Assembly: GCA_029561175.1 (NCBI GenBank)
Contig: JAKQJL010000014.1
Location: 1-43,684, forward strand
Source of the DNA: a bacterium
GTDB lineage: Bacteria > Patescibacteriota > Microgenomatia > UBA12405
Direction of reading: 5' to 3'
Length of the DNA stretch: 43,684 nt
Part shown: positions 7,588 through 32,339 of the stretch, piece by piece
Layout: each line of letters starts with the position of its first letter
Position numbering within the stretch: the stretch's first letter is position 1
Notes under the pieces: generated by a model
What the model saw: the letters and a program-made list of their open reading frames with translations, nothing else
Told to the model about the DNA's origin: nothing
Database searches by the model: none
Translations under genes and position numbers: made by a program

Positions 7588-8307
7588 ATGGCTGAATTTA
7601 AAAGATCTAGATTAATAAATAAAGATGACGAGAATGTGACAAAAAAGACGGTAGTTTTGGGAGTATTAACGTTATTGATATTTTTATTTATCGCAATTTT
7701 TGGTTTACCAATTTTAATTAAATTTTCAATTTTATTGGGTGATTTAAGGAATAAAAATTCAAAAGAGATTAAAGAGAAAGTTCTACCTCCCATGCCACCA
7801 AGAATAGTACTTCCGCTAGAAGCGACTAATAGTAGTCGGTTGAGTGTTGGCGGTTTCGGAGAAAAAGGGACAATGATTGAATTATTGAAAAATGATTTAT
7901 CGGTGGGAAAAATGGAAGTAAGTGAAACTGGAGATTTTAGTTTTAACGATATTATGTTGGATATGGGAGAAAATACTTTTACTGCGATCGCCTTGTCTGC
8001 TGATCGAGGAAGTAGTGAGCCTTCAAAACAAGTAACAATTGCTTATGATAATGAAGCTCCAAGCTTGGAAATGTCTAATCCAAAAGAAGATAAACTGACT
8101 GTAGAATCTGCTGATTACGATATTATTGGAAAAAGCGAAAAGGGTGTTAGTGTAACCATGAATGGCAGATTGGCCATTGTGGCTGATGATGGAACTTTCA
8201 AATTAAAATTTCAACTTAATGCTGGTAAGAATGAAATTGAGATTGTAATCAAAGACAAAGCTGGAAATGAAACTAAGAAAAAAATCGAAATTACTTACGA
8301 TATTTAG
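7588..8307 (+). CDS. Membrane-anchored protein with bacterial Ig-like repeats
   Basis: N-terminal TM; repeated beta-rich segments ENTFTAIALSADRGSSEPSKQVTIAYDNEAP and KNEIEIVIKDKAGNETKKKIEITYD. Confidence 0.7.
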   Translation: MAEFKRSRLINKDDENVTKKTVVLGVLTLLIFLFIAIFGLPILIKFSILLGDLRNKNSKEIKEKVLPPMPPRIVLPLEATNSSRLSVGGFGEKGTMIELLKNDLSVGKMEVSETGDFSFNDIMLDMGENTFTAIALSADRGSSEPSKQVTIAYDNEAPSLEMSNPKEDKLTVESADYDIIGKSEKGVSVTMNGRLAIVADDGTFKLKFQLNAGKNEIEIVIKDKAGNETKKKIEITYDI

Positions 8308-9364
8308 TTTGGTTCAAAACTAAATAAACTAAAACCCAAAGGTATAAACCAGAATTAGCGAAAGAAGAATGTATTAATAGAGCAATTAAAATTGATTTAA
8401 GATAGGTTGATGAAGATTTAAACCAAACAAATAAGCCAATAAGTAGAGGAATAATTCCAAGAATACCATTGGTAATTAGTAAAGTTAATAAACTATTATC
8501 AAATCCGGATGAGGCATGAGATTCTGGATTGGAGTGAAAATGTTTTAAGTTGTTATACCCCAAACCAAAGAAAGGCGATTTTTGAGATAGTTTAAAAGCT
8601 TGTTGATAATTTTCGATTTTGGCAAAAATTGATGATGTTCTTTTTAAATTGGTACTTTCTCCTGGTACTTTGGGTAAAAGTAATATTGTTAAACTAAGAA
8701 TTAATAGAGTTTTAATAAATAGATAGCGATAGTGATAAAAAATTTCAAGAAACAAGGTTACTATTAGCAATGCAAGATAAGTTGATCGGCTATAAGTTAA
8801 AGACATTGCTAAATAACTGATACCAATTAAGATTTGCCAGAATTTTGGTTTATTTAAAAATAAAAAAAGAATAAAAAATAAATAAAGAATTCCAGTAAAG
8901 GTTGGATCAAAAAAAGTGCTAACTAAACGATATTGATGAGGATCCCAATTAAAAGCTTTGAAATAACTGAAGTCTGGCCAAAAGAAATATTGAATAAATC
9001 CAAAAATAATATTTGATAAAAGAGCGATAATTAACCAGGGTTGGTTATTTTTTATGGTAGGTGGATAGGCTAGTAAAAGAAATATAGAAGTTAGCCGTAG
9101 TTGGTAGAACAATGAATTAAAAGAAAAATATTGAAAGTTTAAAATAAAACTAAAAACAGACAAAATAACAAAGATTAAAAAAAAGATATTAGTGGGTTTT
9201 TCTTTTTTTAATAAATGGAAAAATAAGTTAAAAACTGAAAAGATTACTATTAGTAAATCTAAAATTGGTAAATTTTGTCCAAAAAGATTGATTCGAGCAA
9301 GTTGACCAAAAAAAAGACAAAGATAAATAGCGATGGTGGCTATTTGGTAGATTGTAGATGCCAT
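8291..9364 (-). CDS. O-antigen ligase/polymerase-like polytopic membrane protein
   Basis: About 10 hydrophobic segments; LVSTFFDPTFTGILYLF and SRSTYLALL, Wzy/WaaL-like; flanked by glycosyltransferases. Confidence 0.75.
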   Translation of the reverse strand: MASTIYQIATIAIYLCLFFGQLARINLFGQNLPILDLLIVIFSVFNLFFHLLKKEKPTNIFFLIFVILSVFSFILNFQYFSFNSLFYQLRLTSIFLLLAYPPTIKNNQPWLIIALLSNIIFGFIQYFFWPDFSYFKAFNWDPHQYRLVSTFFDPTFTGILYLFFILFLFLNKPKFWQILIGISYLAMSLTYSRSTYLALLIVTLFLEIFYHYRYLFIKTLLILSLTILLLPKVPGESTNLKRTSSIFAKIENYQQAFKLSQKSPFFGLGYNNLKHFHSNPESHASSGFDNSLLTLLITNGILGIIPLLIGLFVWFKSSSTYLKSILIALLIHSSFANSGLYLWVLVYLVLNQTKYRK

Positions 9365-10113
9365 AATTTAGATCTGACTAAAAAAGAATGAAAACTCATA
9401 CCTAAAGCCATAATTATGCCAGGAAGACCGTCGATAAAACCAAGTTTAAAAATATAATTAACAAAAAATTTTGCTAATGGATAGATGACTATTTCAAAAA
9501 TGTTAGTTCTTTTTTGTCGATCAAATAATTCTTGGGCGCGGATTGAAGAATAGTAGTTTATTTTTGAAAAAAATTCATTTAAGTTTTGGTGGGGAAAGTG
9601 ATTGATGGTATAGGCTAATCGAATGTGGCAACATGATGATTTCCAAACTTCATGTACTTTTCCAAAAAAAGAACCATTCTTTTTATTAAATAATCGAAGG
9701 AATCTTTGGTGACGATTTTCACCGTGCATTAATATTTTTCCTAAAAAATAATCGTTCCTAAAAAAAGAATAATTAGAGCCTTGAAAATCGAAATTGTTAA
9801 TAAAATTAAGAAGTTCTTCTGATGGGGTTTCGTCTGGGTCTATCCAAAAAATCCAATTATTAGTAGCAAGGGATATACCAAAATTTCTTTGGGAAGAAAA
9901 ATCGTTATCCAACCCCCTACTTTTAGAAATTACTTTTAAATCTTTAGATTCAAGTTTTTTCAATTTCTCAACAGTATCATCAGTGGAATTGTCATCGATA
10001 TTTACTATTTCATTAATTGCTGGACAAAGACTAAGCCATTCCTGTAGAACATCAACATTTTCAGATTCATTTTTGGTTAAGTATAAAAGAGAGATTTTAT
10101 TTGAGTTGACCAT
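9340..10113 (-). CDS. Glycosyltransferase family 2
   Basis: ISLLYLTKNESENVDVLQEWL, IVNIDDNSTDDTVEKL, WIFWIDPDETPSEEL. Confidence 0.88.
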   Translation of the reverse strand: MVNSNKISLLYLTKNESENVDVLQEWLSLCPAINEIVNIDDNSTDDTVEKLKKLESKDLKVISKSRGLDNDFSSQRNFGISLATNNWIFWIDPDETPSEELLNFINNFDFQGSNYSFFRNDYFLGKILMHGENRHQRFLRLFNKKNGSFFGKVHEVWKSSCCHIRLAYTINHFPHQNLNEFFSKINYYSSIRAQELFDRQKRTNIFEIVIYPLAKFFVNYIFKLGFIDGLPGIIMALGMSFHSFLVRSKLWHLQSTK

Positions 10114-11179
10114 TATTTGCGATTATCATTAGTAAATTTTTTGTATAGTTTGACCAATCTATTCTATCAAGTTGGTGTAAATTTACTATTTTCTTATTTA
10201 AATACTGTTTTATATGATAATTAGCAATTTTATCATTTTGAAACAAGATTCCGTTTAAACCATTTCTTATAAGTTCACTTGTTCCTCCTGTGTTTATTCC
10301 AAAAACAAAAAGACCTTTGTTTAAAGCTTCAAGAGTTGTTAATCCAAAAGGTTCTTTTATATTATTAGCAAGGTAAAACGAATGTTTTTTTATTATTTCT
10401 TCTTTATTTTTATTGTTTTCTTCTTGAATTATTTTTGTGTTTGGTAATAATTTTGATTGATTAAAAATATAGTTGCTTTCATCTGTTATTCTTCCGATTA
10501 TTAAAAGCTTGATACCTTTAATATTTTTTATTTGATTTAAAGAAATTTGATGTCCTTTTAAATATGAAAGTTGTCCAATAGATAAAATTTCTTTTTTTGG
10601 GTTTTTTATAATCTTTGTTTTATGAATATATTTTAATCCAGGATAAAGAACGAACCCTTTTTTGTTATAGATTTTCTTTAGTAGATAATTTGAATATTGT
10701 GAGTTTGTAATAATCAAATTGGCTTTTTTACAATTAACATAATCTATTAGTTTTAAAGGTAATCTAAAAAATTTGGCAAGTCTTTTTTTAAAATTATTTA
10801 GAAAAGCTGTTTTCTCATAAAACTCCCTTTTTGGTTCAGAAAAAATATATACTGCGTTATTTAAATAATGAAACAGATATGGAGTTTGTATATTTTTGCA
10901 CGCTCCTATAATCACAAGATCGTATTGATTATTTAATATAGTTTTTGATATTTTCTTTGCAATTTTGTTTAAAGTAAAAATTGAAAAAAATAAATCTATA
11001 ATAATATTTTTTTTATTATTTTCAGGAAAAGAATAAACATTATTATAAAATGAGATATTTTTTGGTATTTTGTGGCAATACAAATCAATACAATTATTTT
11101 TTGAGAGATTTAAACTAATATTTTCTATTTGATTTAACGCACCTCCATTATCTAGATTGTGATATATAGCTATTTTCAT
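10097..11179 (-). CDS. Glycosyltransferase group 1 (GT4-like)
   Basis: C-terminal region KEPFGLTTLEALNKGLFVFGINTGGTSELIRNGLNGILF. Confidence 0.85.
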   Translation of the reverse strand: MKIAIYHNLDNGGALNQIENISLNLSKNNCIDLYCHKIPKNISFYNNVYSFPENNKKNIIIDLFFSIFTLNKIAKKISKTILNNQYDLVIIGACKNIQTPYLFHYLNNAVYIFSEPKREFYEKTAFLNNFKKRLAKFFRLPLKLIDYVNCKKANLIITNSQYSNYLLKKIYNKKGFVLYPGLKYIHKTKIIKNPKKEILSIGQLSYLKGHQISLNQIKNIKGIKLLIIGRITDESNYIFNQSKLLPNTKIIQEENNKNKEEIIKKHSFYLANNIKEPFGLTTLEALNKGLFVFGINTGGTSELIRNGLNGILFQNDKIANYHIKQYLNKKIVNLHQLDRIDWSNYTKNLLMIIANNGQLK

Positions 11180-11216
11180 AATGTAATAATAATTACAAAA
11201 GAGTATTATTTAATTA

Positions 11217-13517
11217 ATGAAAAGAATAATATGTTTTCTATTATTTATATTCATTCTTTTAGCTCAAGAAGTAAGAGCTGAATGTTCTTTAAGATATTAT
11301 AATTATTTATCATCATACAGTTCTGATTTAAATTTAAACGGTGAAACTTATCCAAATATAGTGTTTGAGAATGATTCTCTTTTATTAAAAAGTAATAAAG
11401 CAACTTTTCCGTTTATTGAATTGAATAACTATGCTAATTATATAGGTCATGAAATAAAGACATGTAATAATGACGTTTTTGATGTAACTTTTAAGGTAAA
11501 TAGTATTAATCCGATGGGAAGTGGTTTGGGTTTTGGTTATTTAATTAATAATATCCCTTATAATATATTTTCTTTGTGGGCTGATTCTCCTGGTGGTTTG
11601 TATCTTATTTACAATAATTACTATAAATACAATTATGATTTTTGCAAAAACTTATCAGGTAAACCCTTTTATTCAGATTATCAATCTTTTCCTATAAACA
11701 TTACTGATAATGAGTGGCATTCTTTTAGGATTGAAAGAGATTGCCAAAGTTATCATGTTTATATTGATAAGGGATCTGCTGATCAGAAAAAGTTTTCTTT
11801 TTATGGTGCTCAGTGTATACCAGAAAATTTATGGTTTGGAAATCCATTGTCTGGTGGAGGAAGTGAGTGGACAAGTATGTCTTTTAAAAATATAAAGATA
11901 ATGAATTCTTTGGATGATTGTGTTTTACCTACACCAACTCCGTCTATGGCAAAAAAGAAAGTGGTGGTGGTGCCGGGAATGGGGGCGAGCTGGAACAGTC
12001 GAGCAATTGTTTACAATGAAAATGTTGCTGATGATCAATGGAAAATGACTCCGTTTGTGACTAATTATGATAAATTGGTGGCAGCTTTTGAAGAGAATGG
12101 GTATGTGAAAGGGGTTGATTTGTTTGTTTGGAATTACGATTGGCGAAAACCTTTATCAGAGATTGTTGGTAAATTGAATTCTTATATTGATTTGATTAGT
12201 GAGGGGGAAAAAGTTGACATAGTCGGTCATAGTTTAGGAGGATTGGTGGCAAGAGTTTGGTCCCAAGAGAATGAAAATAAATTTAATAAAATAATTAGTT
12301 TGGGTTCGCCACATAAGGGAGTGGTTGAGGCTTATGAAGCATATTATGGTGCAAAGATAGTTGATAAGTTGGATTTTTCGACAATAGGTTTAAAGATTTT
12401 ATTTGAAATTCAAAGACAAGGAAGAAAACCGATTGAGGCTATACAGAACTATGCGCCAATTTTAAAAGATATCTCCCCTACTTTTGATTTTCTTAAAAAG
12501 AACAATAAGATTGTAAGTTTTAATAAAAATAATTATTTAAATAATAAAAATATTAGTTTTTCAGGAGATTTAATGTCGATTGTTGGAAATGGAAATAAAT
12601 TGACAGAATGGATAAATCTAACTGATAGATCAGTTTTTGATAAAGTGATGGGTATTTGGCCAGAAGGAAAACCGATAAGTTATCAAAAAGGAAAAGGAGA
12701 TGGTACGGTGTTGGAAAAAAGTTCGAAGTTTGGAACTGAAATTATAGAAATAAAAAGTGAACACGGAGAATTGCCTGATTTGTCGATAAATAAAGTGTTA
12801 ACTACTTTAGGTTTAGGAATAACAGTTAGCCTGGTAACTGAAAACAGTGTTGATAAAATGGTTTATTTCATTGGTTCTCCAGCAAAAATTGTTTTAGCTT
12901 GTCCTGATGAAACCATTGAATCAGATGATTTTATTTTAAAAGATTTAGAAGATGATGATTCGTGTCAATTAAAAGTAGTTGGAACTGGCGAAGGTAAATA
13001 TCATTTATTATTTGGTAATACAAAAAATAGCGATAGTTGGATTTATAACGAAGGACAAATAAATAATGGTGATGAGGTGGCGGTTGATGGTGATTATTTC
13101 TATCGGCAAATAATAAAAGTGGCGGAAGAATTGAATCTTTTGGAACTAAAAGCTGCGGCTGAAAATAAAGATGATGAATTAATTTTAAGTTTGATTTTTA
13201 AATATCGAAAGCAATCAAAAGAGAATAGTAAAACTTGGTTAATGATTAATTGGTGGCGGCAAATATGTTTAAGTAAAGAATATGAGAATAAATTGACCAA
13301 TGATGTTTATAAAAAAGCTTTGGAAGCTAGATCTTTAGTAGATAGAATTTCTAGGCTAAAAATCAGATTTGGAATTAACCCTACCGAGTATGGAGCTAAT
13401 AGTTTTAATGAACTAGATAAATACTATGTAGAGATGGTGGCGAATAAAACAAAAGACAGATCGTTGGTGATGGCTAATGCAAAGTTAATTATCAAGTTGG
13501 CCGAAGACGTTTGGTAG
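11217..13517 (+). CDS. Secreted LamG-like + LCAT/lipase-like alpha/beta hydrolase fusion
   Basis: Signal peptide; N-terminal LamG-like beta domain; linker PTPTPS; hydrolase with VVVVPGMGASW and nucleophile elbow VGHSLGG. Confidence 0.82.
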   Translation: MKRIICFLLFIFILLAQEVRAECSLRYYNYLSSYSSDLNLNGETYPNIVFENDSLLLKSNKATFPFIELNNYANYIGHEIKTCNNDVFDVTFKVNSINPMGSGLGFGYLINNIPYNIFSLWADSPGGLYLIYNNYYKYNYDFCKNLSGKPFYSDYQSFPINITDNEWHSFRIERDCQSYHVYIDKGSADQKKFSFYGAQCIPENLWFGNPLSGGGSEWTSMSFKNIKIMNSLDDCVLPTPTPSMAKKKVVVVPGMGASWNSRAIVYNENVADDQWKMTPFVTNYDKLVAAFEENGYVKGVDLFVWNYDWRKPLSEIVGKLNSYIDLISEGEKVDIVGHSLGGLVARVWSQENENKFNKIISLGSPHKGVVEAYEAYYGAKIVDKLDFSTIGLKILFEIQRQGRKPIEAIQNYAPILKDISPTFDFLKKNNKIVSFNKNNYLNNKNISFSGDLMSIVGNGNKLTEWINLTDRSVFDKVMGIWPEGKPISYQKGKGDGTVLEKSSKFGTEIIEIKSEHGELPDLSINKVLTTLGLGITVSLVTENSVDKMVYFIGSPAKIVLACPDETIESDDFILKDLEDDDSCQLKVVGTGEGKYHLLFGNTKNSDSWIYNEGQINNGDEVAVDGDYFYRQIIKVAEELNLLELKAAAENKDDELILSLIFKYRKQSKENSKTWLMINWWRQICLSKEYENKLTNDVYKKALEARSLVDRISRLKIRFGINPTEYGANSFNELDKYYVEMVANKTKDRSLVMANAKLIIKLAEDVW

Positions 13518-23416: not shown

Positions 23417-24464
23417 AAAATAGTTTAAAAAATGGATGAATAGCTGAACTGGGTTTAAAATTTACTTGGTTGTTTACTTTTGATAAACGAAGAATTGAAT
23501 TAACTAATTTAGTAGAAGTGAGCTGATCTTGGTTAATGATAATAATGTTGTTAGGTGATTTGTTTTGTAGCCAGTTGGCATTGAGTTGTTGTTCGTTTTG
23601 TTGACTAAAAGGTAGGGGTATTAAAATAGCTTTTTGATTAAAAGTGAAAATTTCAAAACAAGTGTTGGCACCTGCTCGTCCGATAATTAAGTTGGCATGT
23701 TTAAAAATCCAACCAATATCTTGAGAAGAGATATATTCAGTTTGGTAGTAACGAGAGTGATGATAATTTTGAATGATGTTTTTATTTTTACCAGTTTGAT
23801 GAATGATGGTAAAGTTGGTTAGTTTTGAAAGAGAATTAATCAGATGTTGGTTGATAATCGCCGAACCTTGATTGCCGCCAGTAATATAGATAAGAGGGTA
23901 TTTTTTTATTTGCTTTTGAAGAGGGTTAAAAGTAGATCGGTTGGTTTGATATAGTTGTTGTCTGACTAAATTACCAGTAACTATAGTTTTTGAAGGTGGC
24001 AAATTGTTTTTAGTATCAAAAGAAAGAGCGATTTTATTAACAAACAATGAACAAATTTTGGTGGTTAAGCTAATAGTTAATGTTTGTTCGTGAATAATTG
24101 ATTTAATTTGATTAACTCTTGAAGCGATTATTACAGGAACTGAAACGTAACCTCCAAAAGAAACAACCAGATTTGGCTTAATTTGCCTAATTAAATAAAA
24201 ACTCCTAAAAAAAGAAAATAAAGTTAATGGGATACCTTTAATAGTGTTAAACAAAGAAATTCGATCGAGTTTACCACTGGGTATATTAATAATTTGAATA
24301 TCTTTTTTTTTAAAAACAGGATCGTCAAGATGATTGTCTGAAGAAAATTTATGAGTTAAATAAAAAATTTTCCAAGAAAAATGAGTGTCTTGACGAAGGT
24401 GATTGATTAGTTCAATGGCTGGAGTGTGATGAACTCCGGTGATGATGATGGTTTTGTTGATCAC
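23403..24464 (-). CDS. murG: UDP-GlcNAc:lipid I GlcNAc transferase MurG
   Basis: VVSFGGYVSVPVIIASRV, IIHEQ, ITGGNQGS, IGRAGANTCFE; shortened N-terminal G-loop (IIITGVHHTPA). Confidence 0.9.
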   Translation of the reverse strand: MINKTIIITGVHHTPAIELINHLRQDTHFSWKIFYLTHKFSSDNHLDDPVFKKKDIQIINIPSGKLDRISLFNTIKGIPLTLFSFFRSFYLIRQIKPNLVVSFGGYVSVPVIIASRVNQIKSIIHEQTLTISLTTKICSLFVNKIALSFDTKNNLPPSKTIVTGNLVRQQLYQTNRSTFNPLQKQIKKYPLIYITGGNQGSAIINQHLINSLSKLTNFTIIHQTGKNKNIIQNYHHSRYYQTEYISSQDIGWIFKHANLIIGRAGANTCFEIFTFNQKAILIPLPFSQQNEQQLNANWLQNKSPNNIIIINQDQLTSTKLVNSILRLSKVNNQVNFKPSSAIHPFFKLFYEMV

Positions 24465-25548
24465 TGTTTTTTAAGTATAACAATTGTTGTTGTCGGTGAA
24501 TATTGGCGACAACTCCTAAACCTAAATATAAACTTACTAAAGAAGAACCGCCGTAAGAAATAAAAGGTAGTGGCATTCCGGTTAGAGGAATTATTGAAGT
24601 AATTGCCCCAAGATTAATTAAAGCTTGAAAAGCAATCCAGAGGCTGATTCCGATAGTAAATAGCTGAGTTGAGTGGTCGGTAAGAGTGTTTGAGAAATTA
24701 ATCAGATGACTAACTAAATACAAATAGGCAAGACAGATGATTAACATACCAATAAATCCTGTTTCTTCACCAATAACAGCAGCAATTGAATCAGTAGATA
24801 CTTTAGGTAGAAACATATATTTTTGATCTGAATTAGCGAAACCTTTACCAAAAATATGGCCTGAAGCCAGGCTGACAATTAGCTGGTTGCTGTGGTAAGC
24901 CTGAGTTGATTGTGGGTTGATTAGTGATTGAAGTCTTTTTAGACGGTATGGTGAGGTAATGGTTAAGATAATACCTAAAAATAAGGCAATAACACCGATA
25001 ATAAAAATAGATTTGATATCACCATTGGCTAGATAAAAAAGAAAAATCGAAATTGTGGCAATTAGAATGGTAGTACTTAGGTTTGGTTCGATAATGATTA
25101 AGAAAAGACCAATTACTAAAGGAATAAAAAAGTGTTTTAAATTAACATTTTTAGTGAGAATGTTGGAAAAATAAAGTATTGAAGTAAATTTAAAAAGTTC
25201 TGATGGTTGAACTCCAAAGAAACCAAAATTTAACCATCGATTGGCACCTAAGATTTTTAATCCAAACTGAGGAATGACAACTAAAAAAAGTAAGAAGAGA
25301 GAAAAATAAAATAATATCGGGGAAAATTTTTTAATTAAAGAATAATCAAGATATCGAATAATAAAAAAAATAGAGAGACCGATTAATGACCAGATTAATT
25401 GTTTTTTGGCGATGCCAAAGCTTACTCCAGTTAAGTTGATAGATTCGAATGGTGAGCTGATTGATAAAAATACTAGACCGATAAAATTTAAGAAAAATAA
25501 GTAACCAAAAATGTGCCAAAAGGATATTGGTTTATTGTTTGTGGTCAT
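24412..25548 (-). CDS. ftsW: SEDS lipid II polymerase FtsW
   Basis: GANRWLNFGFFGVQPSELFKF, AAVIGEETGFIGM, IIPLTGMPLPFISYGGSSLVS. Confidence 0.93.
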   Translation of the reverse strand: MTTNNKPISFWHIFGYLFFLNFIGLVFLSISSPFESINLTGVSFGIAKKQLIWSLIGLSIFFIIRYLDYSLIKKFSPILFYFSLFLLFLVVIPQFGLKILGANRWLNFGFFGVQPSELFKFTSILYFSNILTKNVNLKHFFIPLVIGLFLIIIEPNLSTTILIATISIFLFYLANGDIKSIFIIGVIALFLGIILTITSPYRLKRLQSLINPQSTQAYHSNQLIVSLASGHIFGKGFANSDQKYMFLPKVSTDSIAAVIGEETGFIGMLIICLAYLYLVSHLINFSNTLTDHSTQLFTIGISLWIAFQALINLGAITSIIPLTGMPLPFISYGGSSLVSLYLGLGVVANIHRQQQLLYLKNSDQQNHHHHRSSSHSSH

Positions 25549-26653
25549 TTAGCAATTTGTTGATGTAAACCTCAGGAATTTCTTGAAAATTTTCGGGTTG
25601 ATCGACCAATTGATGATCAAAATTATATTGGTAAATAGTGGTTTGTTGTTTGTTTTTAAGATTAAGTTGGGCACCTATTAATTCTTGATTAAACCGTTGA
25701 TTTTCTTGCTGATCAGAAATATTAAAATTATGAGGGATAAATGAAAGAAGATGAAAATAAAAAAGTGGGTTGAGCGATGCTTGAATCTCAAGCTGAGTGT
25801 AAAAACTAAAAGAAGCAGTTAAACGAGGATTGCACTCTAAAAGATAAACTTTATTTTGGTTTACAAAAAAGTCTAAACCAAAAAAACCTCGATAATGATT
25901 TTCTTTTAAGATTTCTCCAAAAGAATTAGTAATTTCAAGAACTTGTGATTTTATAGACGAACTAATATTTGCAGGCCATTGACGGCCAACGGTGGTGAAT
26001 GGATTATCAGTAAGTTTTTTAATACCAGTAAATTGAAGTGCTGGTGGACTTTGAAAAAGATGTGAATCAACTAGACAGCAATTATTTAAAAGAGTGTATC
26101 CTGACAAATAGGGTGAAATTTTAATTGGAGTATTGTCGGGGAGCAGTGGTTGAAAATTTTTAAGAAAAAAAGTTGAATTACCTGCCCAACCAAAGTGACT
26201 TTGAATAACTAGAGGGGTTTGAAATTTTTCAAAAGCTTGATTAATGTTATCAGAGGTAAAGGTGGTAATTAAGTGCGGAATAATTGGGATGTTTTTTAAT
26301 GAACAAATTGTGGGAAATTTAATTTTATCTTCAAAAAAACGATTAAGCTTGCTGGAATTGGCGGCGTAAATCCATTGATATTTTTGACAAATTTTCTCGA
26401 TTTTACCAGATGGTTTAAAAGGAATAATTATATTTTTCTTATTAGTTGAGTTAGCCAAATTTTGAAGATAATCAATTGTTTTTTGGTTTTCTATAAAGAC
26501 CCCTGTATTTTTTAAAGATAAGTTTATTTTTAAAGTTATAGGGGAAATTGAATAGAAGTTTGGTAACTGAGGAAGATTAATATCTAAGAATTGATCCAGA
26601 CAAAGATAGACAAAATTATAAGGTAATGATGAGAGATAACTTAGTAAATTCAT
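25532..26653 (-). CDS. ATP-grasp family ligase of unknown substrate
   Basis: C-terminal FGLDFFVNQNKVYLLECNPRLTASFSF (ATP-grasp metal/ATP-binding ExNPR motif); 17-bp overlap with ftsW, 4-bp overlap with the PLP gene. Confidence 0.75.
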   Translation of the reverse strand: MNLLSYLSSLPYNFVYLCLDQFLDINLPQLPNFYSISPITLKINLSLKNTGVFIENQKTIDYLQNLANSTNKKNIIIPFKPSGKIEKICQKYQWIYAANSSKLNRFFEDKIKFPTICSLKNIPIIPHLITTFTSDNINQAFEKFQTPLVIQSHFGWAGNSTFFLKNFQPLLPDNTPIKISPYLSGYTLLNNCCLVDSHLFQSPPALQFTGIKKLTDNPFTTVGRQWPANISSSIKSQVLEITNSFGEILKENHYRGFFGLDFFVNQNKVYLLECNPRLTASFSFYTQLEIQASLNPLFYFHLLSFIPHNFNISDQQENQRFNQELIGAQLNLKNKQQTTIYQYNFDHQLVDQPENFQEIPEVYINKLLNDHKQ

Positions 26654-27450
26654 CTTTTAATGCCAGTAACAATTATTAATGGATAATCTCCGATATTAAG
26701 TGATTGGCTAACTTTCTTAAGGCCTGCTAAGGCTAACCCGGCTTCTGGAGAAACAAAAAGCTGATTATCAAGTAGTTCTTGATAACAGGATTTAACTTCA
26801 GAATCGTTAACCACAACTCCCCCACCATGATTTTTTAAGAGAGAAATAATTTTTTGTTTATTGGGAAGTAACTTTACAGATAAAGCATCGGTAATGGTTT
26901 TCATTTCAGAAGTGTAATCTTGATCAAAATAACTACAAATTGGACAAGAAGATGCCGGTTGGACACCAAAAAGTTTGATATTTTTGGGAAGATTTTTTGA
27001 TATTCCTAATAGAGTGGTGCCACTGCCGATAGGTAAAAAAATACTAGTTACTTGAGGTAGTTGAGTTAAAATGTCGATGGTTATCTTCTGGTAACCGATT
27101 TGAGCGTTGGGATCGGTGGATTGGCGAAGAAAAAAAGCCTGGTTTTGTTTGGCGTATTTAAAAGCTGAACTATTAGGTTGAGTTGTTTTAGTAACTTGAG
27201 ATTTAATCAAACTTAGTTTTGAAGCTGAAATATGAGGAGATACAAAAACCTGAAGTTCTAAATTTAATTGACGGCAAAAATAATCTGCTGAAATAGCGGC
27301 ATTTCCTGAAGAAGCAATTACGAATTTTTGGTAACCGAGTTTAATAGCTTGATTGATTTGAAAAGGGATGGCACGATCTTTGGCAGAGCCAGTAATATTT
27401 TGATCTTCGCGAAGATAATAAATATTTTTTATTTTGGTAATTGGAATCAT
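26650..27450 (-). CDS. PLP-dependent fold-type-II enzyme (threonine synthase/cysteine synthase/Ser-Thr dehydratase-racemase superfamily)
   Basis: REDQNITGSAKDRA (PLP lysine), IASSGNAAIS, LPIGSGTTLLG; 266 aa, compact. Confidence 0.82.
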   Translation of the reverse strand: MIPITKIKNIYYLREDQNITGSAKDRAIPFQINQAIKLGYQKFVIASSGNAAISADYFCRQLNLELQVFVSPHISASKLSLIKSQVTKTTQPNSSAFKYAKQNQAFFLRQSTDPNAQIGYQKITIDILTQLPQVTSIFLPIGSGTTLLGISKNLPKNIKLFGVQPASSCPICSYFDQDYTSEMKTITDALSVKLLPNKQKIISLLKNHGGGVVVNDSEVKSCYQELLDNQLFVSPEAGLALAGLKKVSQSLNIGDYPLIIVTGIKR

Positions 27451-27487
27451 AGATGCGATATTTGATTATATATGTTATATATAGATT

Positions 27488-27643
27488 ATGGAAACAAAAA
27501 TTCTTTGTCCCGATTGTCAAACAGAAATAAAATTTGAAAAAATCGAGGTTGGTGATATTTTAGAATGTGATGAGTGTGGTACTGAAGTAGAAATTATTTC
27601 AGTTGAACCATTGAAGTACACTTTATTGGTTGAGGAGAAGTAG
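27488..27643 (+). CDS. LysW-like amino-carrier/zinc-ribbon small protein (51 aa)
   Basis: Own translation: METKILCPDCQTEIKFEKIEVGDILECDECGTEVEIISVEPLKYTLLVEEK; CPxC...CDxCG layout, acidic, LysW-like spacing; absent from the ORF track (under 60 aa). Confidence 0.8.
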   Translation: METKILCPDCQTEIKFEKIEVGDILECDECGTEVEIISVEPLKYTLLVEEK

Positions 27644-28180
27644 TCGGAAAAAGCCTTCTTTAAATTGTTCTTGATCTTGATTGATGTCGATTTGGCCGTA
27701 ATGAACTCCATGATTACTTAAACTGCTGTGGACATAGATTATTTGTTGATCAATTTTTTCAATAACAAATAAAACGTGATGACCTCGTTTTTGGCGGATT
27801 AAGTCTCCTGTTTTAACATCATTAATGTTAACTTTTTTTGATAAAGGAGAAGACGTGAGCATGTTAGCGTTTGTTCTTCGAACATTCAGTTGGGCATCGA
27901 AATAAAAATTTAACAACTGACAACATAGACCTGAACAATCAATTCCTAAATGATGTTTCTTTTGAAAGCGATAAATTTGATTTGAATCTAGTTCGAGTAT
28001 TTTTACTCCTTCTTGGTTGGCCAATTCGACTGTTTTTAGAGCAATTTCTTTGGCGTTTCCTTTACCTACCAAAGAAGCTTCTGGAGAACTGTTTTTATGT
28101 TTACCGGTATTCATAAAGTAAGGAATACCAATATACTTTGAAATTTCTTGTTTTAGTTCGGTTAATTTAATCCCAGCCAT
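27623..28180 (-). CDS. NlpC/P60-like cysteine peptidase
   Basis: LGIDCSGLCCQLLNFYF, TGDLIRQKRGHHVLFVIEK; likely Met start at 28180 (ORF track start 28216 overlaps mraY). Confidence 0.82.
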   Translation of the reverse strand: MAGIKLTELKQEISKYIGIPYFMNTGKHKNSSPEASLVGKGNAKEIALKTVELANQEGVKILELDSNQIYRFQKKHHLGIDCSGLCCQLLNFYFDAQLNVRRTNANMLTSSPLSKKVNINDVKTGDLIRQKRGHHVLFVIEKIDQQIIYVHSSLSNHGVHYGQIDINQDQEQFKEGFFRLLLLNQ

Positions 28181-29196
28181 AGACCTAAAATTGCTAATAT
28201 AAAACCAGCCAACCAAGCTCTAAAGACAATTTTTGGTTCTTCCCAACCATTTCTTTGAAGAGTTAGATGGATTGGAGCAGCTGGGAAAATTTTTCGATGT
28301 AAATAGAGTTTTGAAAAGATTTGAATAGCACTGCTTAAGCCTTCGATAATAAAAATGAATCCAACCACAAGTAAGGGAATTAGTTTTCCTAAAAGAATCG
28401 CAATTAAGGCAAAAGTGGCACCAAAAGACATTGATCCCACATCACCTAACCAAATTCGAGCTGGATAAACATTGAAATATAAAAAAGCAATTAGTGCACC
28501 AATCCATAAGGCTAAAAACAAAGAAATAGGAGTGTCGAGCTGGTTGCTTGAGAGTACCCAAAAAGCAAAAAGTGAAATCATTAAAGTTCCGCAAGATAGA
28601 CCATCAAGACCATCGGTAATATTAAAAAAATTAGCAAAACCGACAATAATTGTGGTAAAAATGGGGATAGAAAATAATCCCAAAGAGACTGGACCCAAAA
28701 AAGGTAGATAGACAAAATTTATACCTAATCGAAAATAAATATGAGCTGAAACTATACCGGCAATTACGAACTGCAAGAGTAGCTTGTGTTTCATTCTTAA
28801 TCCAAAAAAACCAGATTTTTCAAAATTAAAGAATTTTAAAGCATCATCGTATAAACCCAGTAATCCAAAACTGATAAAGGTGAAAAAGATGGCTTCAACT
28901 TCTCGTTGAATTTGAAAGTTATGAGAAATAAAAATATTTGATTGCTGAAGAATAAAAAAAAGAATTGTAAAAAGAACTGTGACTGACACAATAATTAATA
29001 AGCCACCTCCCACTGGTGTACCGGCTTTAATCGCGTGATATTTATCAAAAATCGGAGTTCTTTTGTTTTGAAAATCAAGAGTTTTTTGCTTTTGGCGTTG
29101 GAATTTAAGATGATAGAGAATGTTAATAAAAGGAACAACCAAGACACTGGTGCAAATGAAAGAAAAAAGAAGCAGGCCAAGATAAAATTGGATCAT
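28162..29196 (-). CDS. mraY: Phospho-N-acetylmuramoyl-pentapeptide transferase
   Basis: GTPVGGGLLI, NITDGLDGLSCG, WLGDVGSMSFGA, NGWEEPKIVFRAW. Confidence 0.92.
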   Translation of the reverse strand: MIQFYLGLLLFSFICTSVLVVPFINILYHLKFQRQKQKTLDFQNKRTPIFDKYHAIKAGTPVGGGLLIIVSVTVLFTILFFILQQSNIFISHNFQIQREVEAIFFTFISFGLLGLYDDALKFFNFEKSGFFGLRMKHKLLLQFVIAGIVSAHIYFRLGINFVYLPFLGPVSLGLFSIPIFTTIIVGFANFFNITDGLDGLSCGTLMISLFAFWVLSSNQLDTPISLFLALWIGALIAFLYFNVYPARIWLGDVGSMSFGATFALIAILLGKLIPLLVVGFIFIIEGLSSAIQIFSKLYLHRKIFPAAPIHLTLQRNGWEEPKIVFRAWLAGFILAILGLWLGLN

Positions 29197-29212: not shown

Positions 29213-30523
29213 TTAAATTTTAGTAAAAGTCGAGATTATACGGTTTAGAGTGTCTAAACCCTTTTTACCTCCGGAACTAAAATGGACCAAAATGTCTTGA
29301 GGTTTAAGATTGTTTTGGTAATAGTCAATTATTTGTTGGTAATCTGGCAGGTAAGTTATTTTTTTACCTAATTCTAGGTGATAATCTTGAAAAGTAGTTC
29401 TTTGGTCAACAGAAACTGATGGGGAAAATTTTATTTTACTAATAGTTATTTGGGATGCGTTTTTAAACGCCTGATTAAAACCAATTATCGAATTTTTATT
29501 TTGTAAAAAGGAAGCGTGAGGTTCAAAAAAAACTTTAATTTGGTGAGTGGGATATTGATAGTGAATTGCTTCTAAGGCTGAGGCAATTCGATCTTTAGAT
29601 TGAGCAAAATCGTCGATAAAAATAATATTATTAATGATTTTTTTGATTTCTAATCTGCGCTTAATACCACGGTAATGATTTAAAGCTGATTGAATGATTT
29701 TTGGTTTAATTCCTAAGGCGATGGCCATAGTAGTGGCTGCCATAACGTTTTCCTGATTGTGTTTACCAACTAAACAAGAATTAAAAGAAAAATTAAAATT
29801 ATAAGGAAGAGCCTGTGAGTAATTCTTAGAAATTTCTGTGGCTGATGGAGAATTTGGGTTATAAACTAAAATGCCATTTTTAGGTAATCGATTGATAAGT
29901 TTAATAAATGATTGTTTGTTTGAGCTTTGGGAAGGATAGGATTCTTTATGTTCCCAGTCGGCTGAAGTTAATAATAAATGGGTTAGCGGGTAATAATGAA
30001 ATTTTGCTTGAGTATCGAGACCATTAATAGATTCATCGGCTTCAATAATTGAATAGTCCCCAGTACTAGTGGTTAAAGAGGGAAGATGATTAATAAAACT
30101 GGCACCAACCATATAACTAGGGTTGAGTTTGGCATATTTAAAAATCCAGATTAATAATGAGGTGATGGTTGATTTTCCATAAGATCCAGCGACTAAAATG
30201 TTGATTTTTTTATCTAAAAGCTGACTTAGGTACTCAGTGGCGGATATATAAGGATAGTGGTTTTTAGTAATTAAAGCGAATTCTTCTTGACATTTGGTAA
30301 ATGATTTAAACGAAGAACCGATAATAAATAGGTCAATTTTTTGATAATCTATGACTTTATTAACAGGAATTTTGGATTTTAAAAGAATGGTGCTTATAGG
30401 AGGATAAATTTGATCTTGATCTGATCCAGATATTTGGTGGCCAAGTCGAGTTAATTCTAAAGCTAAAGGTGTGGTCATGTTGCCAGCGATTCCTAAAATA
30501 TGAATTCTCATAATTGTTGCCAA
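29213..30523 (-). CDS. Mur ligase, Mpl/MurC-like
   Basis: IHILGIAGNMTTPLALELTRLGHQISGSDQDQIYPPISTIL (Mpl/MurC Rossmann), P-loop VAGSYGKSTI, IIEADE; only MurC-type ligase in the window. Confidence 0.85.
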   Translation of the reverse strand: MATIMRIHILGIAGNMTTPLALELTRLGHQISGSDQDQIYPPISTILLKSKIPVNKVIDYQKIDLFIIGSSFKSFTKCQEEFALITKNHYPYISATEYLSQLLDKKINILVAGSYGKSTITSLLIWIFKYAKLNPSYMVGASFINHLPSLTTSTGDYSIIEADESINGLDTQAKFHYYPLTHLLLTSADWEHKESYPSQSSNKQSFIKLINRLPKNGILVYNPNSPSATEISKNYSQALPYNFNFSFNSCLVGKHNQENVMAATTMAIALGIKPKIIQSALNHYRGIKRRLEIKKIINNIIFIDDFAQSKDRIASALEAIHYQYPTHQIKVFFEPHASFLQNKNSIIGFNQAFKNASQITISKIKFSPSVSVDQRTTFQDYHLELGKKITYLPDYQQIIDYYQNNLKPQDILVHFSSGGKKGLDTLNRIISTFTKI

Positions 30524-31098
30524 TGATTATTTTGATAATATTCAAAACCAGGAAGGTTTCTTTTGTAATAACCGATTTTTTTATCAAGATCGAATCTACC
30601 CAAATAACAAAAATCTAAATTATTATTGGCACTATCAATGATTGTTTCAATTACCATTCTGATGGGTAAATCCTGATGAGCAAAATCTGGATTATAAAAA
30701 ACATAGGCAATATGGGAAAATTTTTGATGATAATAGCAAATGGCATAGCCAACTATTTGATCTTTAAGTTTCCAAATAAAAAGTTGATTAAAAATATGGT
30801 GATTAAAGATATATTTAACAGAACTAATTGGAAAATCCCAGCCTAAATTTTTAATCCAATGATGAATAGTTTTTTGAGTAGACAAATCGAAGGAAAAATC
30901 TGCCAAATTTATTTTTTCAAAAGAAAAATCAGTGGTTTTTCTAATGATGCGACGATTTTCAGAAGAAAGAGTAAATTGTGAGAGATTAGATCGACAACTT
31001 GATTCTTGATAGAAGAGTTGACGATCGTTACGTTGAGGTAGTAATCCTTGCTGGTATAAAGATTGATAATCTTGAGTTGCGAGAATATTGAATGTCAT
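30508..31098 (-). CDS. Arginyl/leucyl-tRNA-protein transferase (ATE/Bpt)-like GNAT-fold protein
   Basis: SSENRRIIRKTTDFSF, IAYVFYNPDFAHQDLPIRMVIETI, LDFCYLGRFDLDKKIGYYKRNLPGFEYYQNNHWQ resemble the ATE/Bpt core and C-terminal pattern; overlaps murE and the Mpl-like gene. Confidence 0.62.
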   Translation of the reverse strand: MTFNILATQDYQSLYQQGLLPQRNDRQLFYQESSCRSNLSQFTLSSENRRIIRKTTDFSFEKINLADFSFDLSTQKTIHHWIKNLGWDFPISSVKYIFNHHIFNQLFIWKLKDQIVGYAICYYHQKFSHIAYVFYNPDFAHQDLPIRMVIETIIDSANNNLDFCYLGRFDLDKKIGYYKRNLPGFEYYQNNHWQQL

Positions 31099-32339
31099 TG
31101 ATTTAATTTTAATCTAAAAGCAGTTCTAAAAGCTTCGGCATCTGACCAGGGGTATTCAGTATTACCCAATAAAATAGTAGTTTCGTGGCCTTTACCGCAA
31201 GCAACAATAGTATCGTGAGGTTTAGCAAGACTAATTGCTTGGTTAAAAGCTTCTTGACGGTTGGGGACATTATAATAAGAAAAGAGTTGTTTTTTAACTT
31301 TTGATTGATTGATACCATTGATTATCTGTTGGTTTATATCTTCAATTTTTTCATTTCGAGTATCATCAGAGGTAATGAAAGCGATGTTTGACAATTCGGA
31401 AACTACTTCTCCCATTAAGGGTCTTTTTGATTGATCCCGGCCACCGGTAGCGCCAAAAATAACAATTAATCTACCTGAAGTAGTTTCTCTTAATGATAAT
31501 AAAGTTTGTTTTAATGCTGCTGGAGTATGAGCAAAATCAACAATAGTTCTAATATTTAGATCGTTTTCAATATTTTGTCGACGACCTTTTGTTTCTGGAA
31601 ATTCAAGAATATTTTTGGCAACTAATTGATGATCAATATTTAGATCAGTTAACAAAGAATAGGCTGCCAGAATATTGTAAGCTTGATATTGATATGGAGA
31701 ATTGGTGATTATTTGTTTTTGATTAACTAAAAAACTTAGAGATTTTGGGGTTATTTTAAGATTTTTAGCTTGGAAATCTGATTTGGTATTAAGACTATAG
31801 GAAATTAATTTTTTAGAATCAAAAATGGATTTAATGGTTTTGGCAGAAGAATCGTCTTGATTAAAAATAATTTTGGAAGAATTTTTTAATAGTTTTAATT
31901 TGGCTTCTAAGTATTCTTTTTGAGAGGGAAAATCATCTAAATGTTCATGAGATAAATTGGTAAAAATTCCATAATTAAATTTAAACCCAAAAAATCGAAA
32001 TTGATCGAGACCGTGTGCGGTGGTTTCAATAACGGCATATTTTTTACCTTCTTTTTTCATTTTAATAAGAATAGGAAGGAGGTTCTTGGGATGAGGAGAA
32101 GTGGTGTGTAATCCGGGGCTATTGATGGTGTTAATTGAAAAAGATGGAAAACCAAGACGATTTAATAATTCATCAATGAGAACGGTGGTGGTGGTTTTAC
32201 CATCAGTTCCAGTGACGCCAATTAAGAAAAAATGACGTTGAGGAAAGCCATAACGAAGAGAATAAAATAGGCTATTTGGTAAATGCCAACAGTAATTCTT
32301 TATTTTTTGGAAAAGGTATTTAATCCAAATATTAGGCAT
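31095..32339 (-). CDS. murE: MurE-type Mur ligase (short N-terminus)
   Basis: GVTGTDGKTTTTVLIDELL, ETTAHGLDQFRF, NLSHEHLDDF, VDFAHTPAALKQTL, GATGGRDQSKRPLMG. Confidence 0.9.
   Translation of the reverse strand: MPNIWIKYLFQKIKNYCWHLPNSLFYSLRYGFPQRHFFLIGVTGTDGKTTTTVLIDELLNRLGFPSFSINTINSPGLHTTSPHPKNLLPILIKMKKEGKKYAVIETTAHGLDQFRFFGFKFNYGIFTNLSHEHLDDFPSQKEYLEAKLKLLKNSSKIIFNQDDSSAKTIKSIFDSKKLISYSLNTKSDFQAKNLKITPKSLSFLVNQKQIITNSPYQYQAYNILAAYSLLTDLNIDHQLVAKNILEFPETKGRRQNIENDLNIRTIVDFAHTPAALKQTLLSLRETTSGRLIVIFGATGGRDQSKRPLMGEVVSELSNIAFITSDDTRNEKIEDINQQIINGINQSKVKKQLFSYYNVPNRQEAFNQAISLAKPHDTIVACGKGHETTILLGNTEYPWSDAEAFRTAFRLKLNQ

Follow-up and report, generated by a model that had tools for sequence, protein, structure and literature searches.

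A LysW-like carrier cassette linked to the D-glutamate step of peptidoglycan synthesis in Patescibacteria

A 43,684-nucleotide stretch of Shapirobacteria (Patescibacteria) DNA (contig JAKQJL010000014.1; hereafter the window) carries, inside its division and cell wall (dcw) cluster, three adjoining genes for a LysW-like zinc-ribbon carrier, a fold-type-II pyridoxal phosphate (PLP) enzyme and an ATP-grasp ligase. This triad, with a neighbouring NlpC/P60 peptidase (together, the cassette), has a strong genomic link to the D-Glu step of peptidoglycan synthesis. The link is read from the sequences themselves: the gene set and its conservation, the invariant C-terminal lysine of the carrier, the occupation of the murD slot in Shapirobacteria, the missing MurD, MurI and canonical MurC, several gene fusions, and changes in those MurD proteins that persist. 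We consider the chances about even that an alternative route in the cytosol, with the cassette at its core, brings D-Glu to stem position 2 and replaces MurI and, in most lineages, MurD. Somewhat more tentatively, we propose that a covalent bond to the epsilon-amine of the C-terminal lysine of this dedicated carrier holds the second stem residue throughout its loading, epimerisation and ligation, which would stand in for MurI and MurD across much of the Patescibacteria; the substrate, the attachment atom, the epimerisation, the GNAT donor and the order of steps are proposals that go with this scheme.

The ATP-grasp gene (25532..26653, minus strand, 373 aa; PF02655, 8.8e-6, and an ATP-grasp fold) encodes a putative amide ligase that would load the carrier, and the PLP gene (26650..27450, minus strand, 266 aa; PF00291 (PALP), 6.6e-39) a putative epimerase of carrier-bound glutamate. 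The divergent carrier gene (27488..27643, plus strand, 51 aa, METKILCPDC...ECGTEVEI...LLVEEK; PF21344, 3.2e-11) finishes with the codon of the invariant lysine (27638..27640, plus strand; translation and alignment), the candidate attachment site. The three genes lie where the initial annotation had placed them, with overlaps of 4 bp between PLP and ATP-grasp genes and 17 bp between ATP-grasp and ftsW genes and a divergent gap of 37 bp. Its suggestion of translational coupling to ftsW does not generalise, since the 17-bp overlap is lost in relatives and adjacency alone is kept. Among 43 genomes of the order, the ATP-grasp gene was present in 37, the PLP gene in 39 and the LysW gene in 38; because they are adjacent and in the same order across these genomes, at neighbouring coordinates, the arrangement is not due to chance. 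Indeed, the triad lay between mraY(-NlpC) and ftsW-murG in all 20 neighbourhoods first read (Shapirobacteria order). In all, 75 loci were read, spanning this order and some 20 further families; several lay on short contigs. PLP was present in 72 of the loci, LysW in 70 and ATP-grasp in 66, while NlpC/P60 turned up in as many as 59 (55 by one profile and 4 by an SH3-type profile). All four parts fell within one stretch in 52. The LysW gene was divergent from the PLP gene in 68 of 69 loci, the exception (L100) being an artefact of open-frame counting. The initial annotation had staked its reading on the three families recurring together in relatives, and they do so across many lineages; the carrier's named relatives in public genomes are mostly Candidatus Shapirobacteria (Patescibacteria). 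In one family (f89; L111, L118, L197 and L198) an ileS-like gene lies between LysW(-K) and PLP, with the divergence and the C-terminal lysine retained.

The carrier has a zinc-ribbon LysW domain with four cysteines (PF21344, 43.1 bits against a cut-off of 27; CPDC/CxxC conserved). Its last residue is lysine in all 69 LysW-like proteins whose locus also holds a PLP gene, and the residues leading up to it vary (EEK, DEGK, VEK, RGK). Known LysW and ArgW proteins end in EDWGE, and the final Glu bears the amino acid (PMC10433800). With lysine in 69 of 69 and the EDWGE ending in none of them, the triad carrier belongs to the LysW family by its domain but has a terminus of another kind, which does not vary. 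LysW proteins outside cassette loci end in EDWGE/EDWGQ, Trp or other residues. Those found outside the Patescibacteria were rejected as cassette members: they end in EDWGE or Trp and have no PLP or ATP-grasp neighbours. A possible further variant occurs in family f55 (L117:9956-10126, near a murE-like gene, and L081), where a LysW-like protein with no PLP neighbour ends in Val or Phe.

To view the cassette across the phylum we used 380 Patescibacteria genomes, 35 of them PLP-positive (E below 1e-45) and 345 PLP-negative. PLP and LysW genes occurred together in 30 genomes, PLP alone in 5, LysW alone in 3 and neither in 342 (Fisher p 6e-36; the Fisher tests here treat related genomes as independent, so their p values are not literal, and the association is taken as strong because it recurs in many families). 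Five genomes had PLP but no LysW match, and four of these proved, once their loci were read, to hold a K-ending carrier. MurD was present in 5 of 35 PLP-positive as against 253 of 345 PLP-negative genomes (p 8e-12), leaving 30 PLP-positive genomes without a match, and strong MurI matches were present in 0 of 35 as against 115 of 345 (p 3e-6). Within the order, no triad genome had a MurD match up to the cut-off. No MurD-type ligase was found in G000, and because this genome is only 83% complete the absences rest on the group of genomes. A murD gene hidden between murC and mraY was considered and ruled out, the gene there being MurA-like. In many near-complete Patescibacteria (G046, G067, G166 and about 90 others) these searches found neither MurD nor the cassette.

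The position of the cassette bears on the same step. Its flanks in the window are mraY upstream (28162..29196, minus strand) and ftsW downstream (24412..25548, minus strand), both from the gene reading of the window. When 20 neighbourhoods around murD were read in MurD-positive genomes, ten (L124, L128, L130, L131, L133, L134, L136, L138, L139 and L143) had the order mraY, MurD-position ligase, ftsW (rodA in L133) and murG, the ligase being labelled murE or murC by profiles; in the remaining ten, murD lay apart from mraY, ftsW and murG or its neighbours were unrecognised. None of the 20 held LysW, PLP, ATP-grasp, GNAT or NlpC genes near murD. In Shapirobacteria the slot reads mraY-NlpC-LysW-PLP-ATP-grasp-ftsW. 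The cassette is a positional replacement of murD in Shapirobacteria, not in every lineage.

The MurC-type enzyme of the cluster is also unusual. The window ligase (29213..30523, minus strand) scores under the murC family cut-off and lacks the canonical motifs DDYxHHPTE and FQPHxxxRT. It carries instead a YPP motif, the [YF]PP form of which was found in 17 of 17 triad ligases and in E. coli Mpl, and in 0 of 14 MurC proteins; it also shares with Mpl a Glu replacing the MurC Gln (EP instead of QP). That the ligase would be Mpl-like and take a preformed peptide had been recorded as an expectation before the trees were made. Unrooted MurC/Mpl trees cannot reveal affinity, and a MurD outgroup was therefore added, upon which the triad ligases and Mpl formed one clade (100/99). 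The Mpl motif (S/T)AFFDKRSK (PMC3060825) is absent from the window ligase, which has INGLDTQAKFHYY in its place. The enzyme is thus not Mpl proper and appears to belong to a separate, Mpl-like subfamily. Canonical MurC was found in all five PLP-positive genomes with MurD and in none of the 30 without it, which have a sub-cut-off MurC-like ligase only.

In the five triad genomes that retain MurD, it adjoins the cassette and is itself altered. Lys348 and Thr321 are kept, the Ser415 position is occupied by Tyr, Trp, Tyr, Tyr or Gly, and Asn stands at the Asp182 position in all five; in ten of ten ordinary Patescibacteria MurD proteins used as controls, Ser415 is retained. In MurD inhibitor complexes the first carboxylate lies at Lys348/Thr321 and the second, gamma-like carboxylate at Ser415 (PMC3527612). 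Loss of the Ser415 contact in these five sequences is suggestive, and would fit a gamma-carboxyl that is no longer free.

These features can be set against a more direct route, which we regard as a serious but distinctly less probable reading. Here the PLP enzyme would be a racemase of free glutamate (or another amino acid), and the ATP-grasp enzyme would either make the L-Ala-D-Glu dipeptide or take the place of MurD directly. The LysW-like protein would then be only a regulator whose C-terminal tail enters an active site, much as the CysE tail enters that of CysK. Serine and aspartate fold-type-II racemases are indeed among the closest folds of the PLP enzyme, ATP-grasp peptide ligases are among the fold neighbours of the other, and an Mpl-like MurC would take a dipeptide, PaMpl accepting L-Ala-D-Glu slowly (PMC3060825). 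However, the five triad genomes that have MurD as well as canonical MurC still keep the ATP-grasp gene, although a dipeptide ligase would be pointless there, and the lost gamma-carboxylate ligand of those MurD proteins suggests a masked gamma-carboxyl. Nor would a regulatory tail need to end in lysine in 69 of 69 cases, and the NlpC/P60 and GNAT proteins are left unexplained.

The NlpC/P60 gene (27623..28216, minus strand; PF00877, 2.4e-6), whose likely start is a conserved Met at about 28180, encodes a protein with no signal peptide recognisable by eye and is predicted to be a cytosolic releasing enzyme acting at gamma-D-Glu. Residues Y33, D93-C94-S95 and H147 are nearly invariant in the alignment and correspond by motif to the catalytic Cys/His and to S1 residues Tyr226, Asp237 and Ser239 of YkfC, where they form the catalytic and gamma-D-Glu sites (PMC2954226). 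Asp256 of YkfC, which reads the free N-terminal L-Ala (PMC2954226), is absent from the window protein, which has R113-R-T-N-A there, so no requirement for a free N-terminal L-Ala is expected. A search of PDB sequences with the window NlpC returned repeat artefacts only. The GNAT protein (30508..31098, minus strand) is akin to arginyl/leucyl-tRNA-protein transferases (the ATE/Bpt family; NCBIfam arginyltransferase, 1e-7) and remains under the cut-offs (20.3 of 25 bits in Pfam and 31.8 of 205 in NCBIfam); it may provide the L-Ala donor step. Fusions of GNAT to MurC (L107), MurC to NlpC (L102) and ATP-grasp to NlpC (L119 and L195) link the GNAT, the MurC-like ligase, the NlpC/P60 and the ATP-grasp enzyme in one pathway. 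In triad genomes with MurD an SH3-domain NlpC/P60 adjoins MurD (L105, L113 and L194) or is fused to the ATP-grasp enzyme (L119); no GNAT was seen in the short neighbourhoods of these genomes. A second, FemX-like GNAT occurs in family f46 between murE and a PLP aminotransferase-like gene (L102:16459-17478), suggestive of a cross-bridge or sugar-modifying step.

NlpC/P60 and Mpl are also a known recycling pair (PMC9928106, PMC3060825), and this raises a salvage reading that we consider rather improbable. Epibionts would recycle murein peptides of the host, NlpC/P60 trimming them to L-Ala-D-Glu and the Mpl-like ligase reattaching this dipeptide, so that MurI, MurC and MurD become dispensable. The triad would do something else, for example in amino-acid metabolism. 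Reduced genomes and the placement with Mpl are in keeping with it. It does not account for the ties of the triad to NlpC, GNAT and the Mpl-like MurC by position and fusion, nor for NlpC fused to or next to the ATP-grasp enzyme or MurD in triad genomes with canonical MurC, and the Asp256 found in the YkfC subfamily, which requires free L-Ala, is missing from the window NlpC.

The PLP enzyme has the features of fold type II, namely a PALP domain, the PLP lysine K24 and an SxGN loop (S47-G49-N50), and its AlphaFold2 model (predicted local distance difference test, pLDDT, 92.5) matched three enzymes equally well in a fold search, namely threonine synthase, serine racemase and aspartate racemase (Z 29-30). 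The ATP-grasp model (pLDDT 95.0) matches the ATP-grasp fold at Z 23-25, its neighbours including biotin carboxylase, PurK and peptide ligases (8ynd, Z 23.8; BesA 8yi6, 23.5) with no clear winner. The conserved motif of the triad ATP-grasp enzymes is GWAGNS, and the GSWGR of LysX/ArgX was not found in them. It is very improbable that both enzymes belong to ordinary amino-acid metabolism, as a threonine synthase and a biotin-carboxylase-like ATP-grasp protein that entered the dcw cluster by chance. Their best NCBIfam names, threonine synthase and PRK06524, do point that way, yet both lie far under the cut-offs (77.6 of 358 and 82.7 of 684 bits, respectively), as does the MfnD family for the ATP-grasp enzyme (25 of 400 bits), and the arrangement is conserved over many families with three kinds of fusion among linked peptidoglycan enzymes. 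No close characterised ortholog, the outcome that was to have spoken for ordinary metabolism, was found in the family searches. A role of the ATP-grasp enzyme as a Ddl replacement was ruled out, Ddl being present, G000 included. Some genomes of the order (G029:C3:29524-31377; G007:C41:9419-11933) carry divergent Ddl-like ATP-grasp genes in tandem, either in addition to a standard Ddl or in its place.

We propose the carrier-bound scheme because D-Glu supply and addition are missing while an amide ligase, a PLP enzyme of a superfamily that includes racemases, a carrier ending in lysine and a gamma-D-Glu peptidase are present. The ATP-grasp enzyme would activate the gamma-carboxyl of L-Glu and join it to the C-terminal lysine of the carrier, most likely at the epsilon-amine, so that the alpha-amine and alpha-carboxyl stay free. 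Attachment of the amino acid through a carboxyl is more likely than through its amine, since the PLP enzyme needs a free alpha-amine and lysine offers an amine. The PLP enzyme would then epimerise the bound Glu from L to D. In lineages without MurD, the window included, the ATE-like GNAT would put L-Ala on the alpha-amine and the Mpl-like MurC would ligate UDP-MurNAc to that L-Ala. NlpC/P60 would finally cut the product off the carrier. The scheme accounts for three observations: the retention of the ATP-grasp gene alongside MurD, the loss of the gamma-carboxylate contact in that MurD, and a MurC that is Mpl-like only in the absence of MurD.

The initial annotation was right to assign the genes to peptidoglycan synthesis, and its idea that an amino acid is handled by the ATP-grasp enzyme with the carrier survives as the best reading. 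Three further parts of the same cluster escaped it: a cytosolic NlpC/P60, an ATE-like GNAT and a MurC of non-canonical type. Less of its chemistry holds: that the cassette supplies some unusual amino acid to a cross-bridge or to a side-chain modification of the stem, in the way Aslfm supplies D-Asp, is improbable. The ATP-grasp and PLP families and the dcw location would fit such a role. However, neither the altered MurD nor the disappearance of MurD, MurI and canonical MurC would be expected from it, and among the enzymes of the cluster a GNAT is the better candidate for a bridge-type role. We favour the D-Glu step at position 2 over a cross-bridge because MurD and MurI are missing, the cassette fills the murD slot in Shapirobacteria, the MurC is Mpl-like and MurD is altered.

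Several observations weigh against the proposed route. MurI is also missing in 230 of 345 PLP-negative genomes, and about 92 PLP-negative genomes lack MurD as well, which means that either enzyme can be missing without the cassette. The missing D-Glu supply was judged from MurI and MurD, and D-Glu may also come from a D-amino-acid transaminase or from scavenging. Outside Shapirobacteria the parts of the cassette are often split by wall genes (mraY, GNAT, murC) or scattered over several kb, away from the murD slot. One PLP-positive genome (G412) has no LysW near its PLP gene, and no GNAT was seen near the MurD-less loci L109, L114, L115, L190-L193, L197 and L198. The Mpl grouping rests on long branches, with both alternatives rejected only at p 0.03 in the approximately unbiased test, and for these reasons we call the ligase Mpl-like and no firmer. 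The NlpC residue match is one of motif, not of structure. In the modelled structures, the fold searches do not separate an epimerase from a synthase or dehydratase for the PLP enzyme, or a gamma-glutamyl ligase from other ATP-grasp enzymes.

Among the closest known systems is the LysW/ArgW amino-group carrier pathway of Thermus and archaea, with which the cassette shares a Zn-ribbon carrier, an ATP-grasp ligase and, as proposed, a functional C-terminus of the carrier. That pathway also has modifying enzymes and a releasing peptidase, as is proposed for the cassette. In contrast, the cassette has a C-terminal Lys in place of EDWGE/Glu, a non-LysX ATP-grasp enzyme without GSWGR, a PLP enzyme and NlpC/P60 where LysW has a kinase, a reductase and LysK, and a link to peptidoglycan. 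In its architecture of carrier, ATP-grasp enzyme, modifying enzyme and releasing peptidase the cassette is a variant of amino-group carrier systems, and its chemistry and pathway would be new. D-aspartate ligase (Aslfm), MfnD and BesA are ATP-grasp amide ligases acting on Asp/Glu side-chain carboxyls, as is proposed for the cassette ligase, which differs in its partners and lies far under the family cut-offs where tested. The window ligase groups with Mpl and shares its YPP motif and EP Glu, whereas it lacks the (S/T)AFFDKRSK motif and sits in a biosynthetic dcw cluster as the sole MurC-type enzyme found. With the gamma-D-Glu endopeptidases YkfC and DPP VI, the window NlpC shares the catalytic Cys and the S1 residues for gamma-D-Glu; it differs in lacking Asp256, in lying within a biosynthetic unit and in being fused elsewhere to MurC or the ATP-grasp enzyme. 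MurD2/MurL of Xanthomonas likewise bypasses MurI at the D-Glu step, by L-Glu addition and later epimerisation (PMC8788868), which on the cassette side is proposed. There, the Mur ligase MurD2 acts on UDP-MurNAc-L-Ala and the epimerase MurL is ATP-dependent (PMC8788868); the cassette, made of ATP-grasp, PLP and carrier proteins, has no component in common with them, and the five triad-associated MurD proteins have none of the MurD2-type residues (Arg358, Glu197), keeping Lys348 and having Asn, not Glu, at 182. A full-text literature search, with most subscription papers and all preprints outside it, turned up no account of this set of genes, or of peptidoglycan synthesis that uses a LysW-type carrier.

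MurI and MurD are textbook enzymes, and to our knowledge the exceptions are few (MurD2/MurL, and DapF as the racemase in Chlamydia). PMC5885031 describes D-Glu as the strictly conserved residue at position 2 in bacteria. If the proposed route is correct, the cassette would use a carboxyl-group carrier, the mirror image of LysW, and bring a new logic to cell-wall synthesis. Many Patescibacteria have MraY, MurG and FtsW and neither MurD nor MurI, and the route would explain how they could nonetheless build a wall; it would also offer a narrow, lineage-specific target. A few small soluble proteins would then be enough to put the wall chemistry of these organisms to a direct test.

The wider cluster on the minus strand runs glyS, a lipoprotein-like gene, rsmH, an FtsL-like gene, ftsI, murE, the ATE-like GNAT, the MurC-like ligase and mraY, and then NlpC/P60, the divergent LysW, PLP, ATP-grasp, ftsW, murG, an FtsQ-like gene, ftsA, ftsZ, ileS and rodA. 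By profile matches, MurE (31095..32339, minus strand) and the MurF at G000:C36:4854-5906 are without the N-terminal UDP-MurNAc-binding domain. This truncation was considered as a sign of off-nucleotide assembly and set aside, the domain being missing in MurD-positive Patescibacteria too; indeed it is lost in nearly all Patescibacteria MurE and MurF proteins checked, with or without MurD. In one MurD-positive Microgenomates locus (L130:15244-17298) a GlmU-like nucleotidyltransferase is fused to MurC in a single 685-aa frame with a masked stretch inside. Elsewhere in the window, GC content falls to 25-29% over glycosyltransferase and O-antigen-ligase-like genes at 8001-12000, possibly a foreign surface-polysaccharide island.

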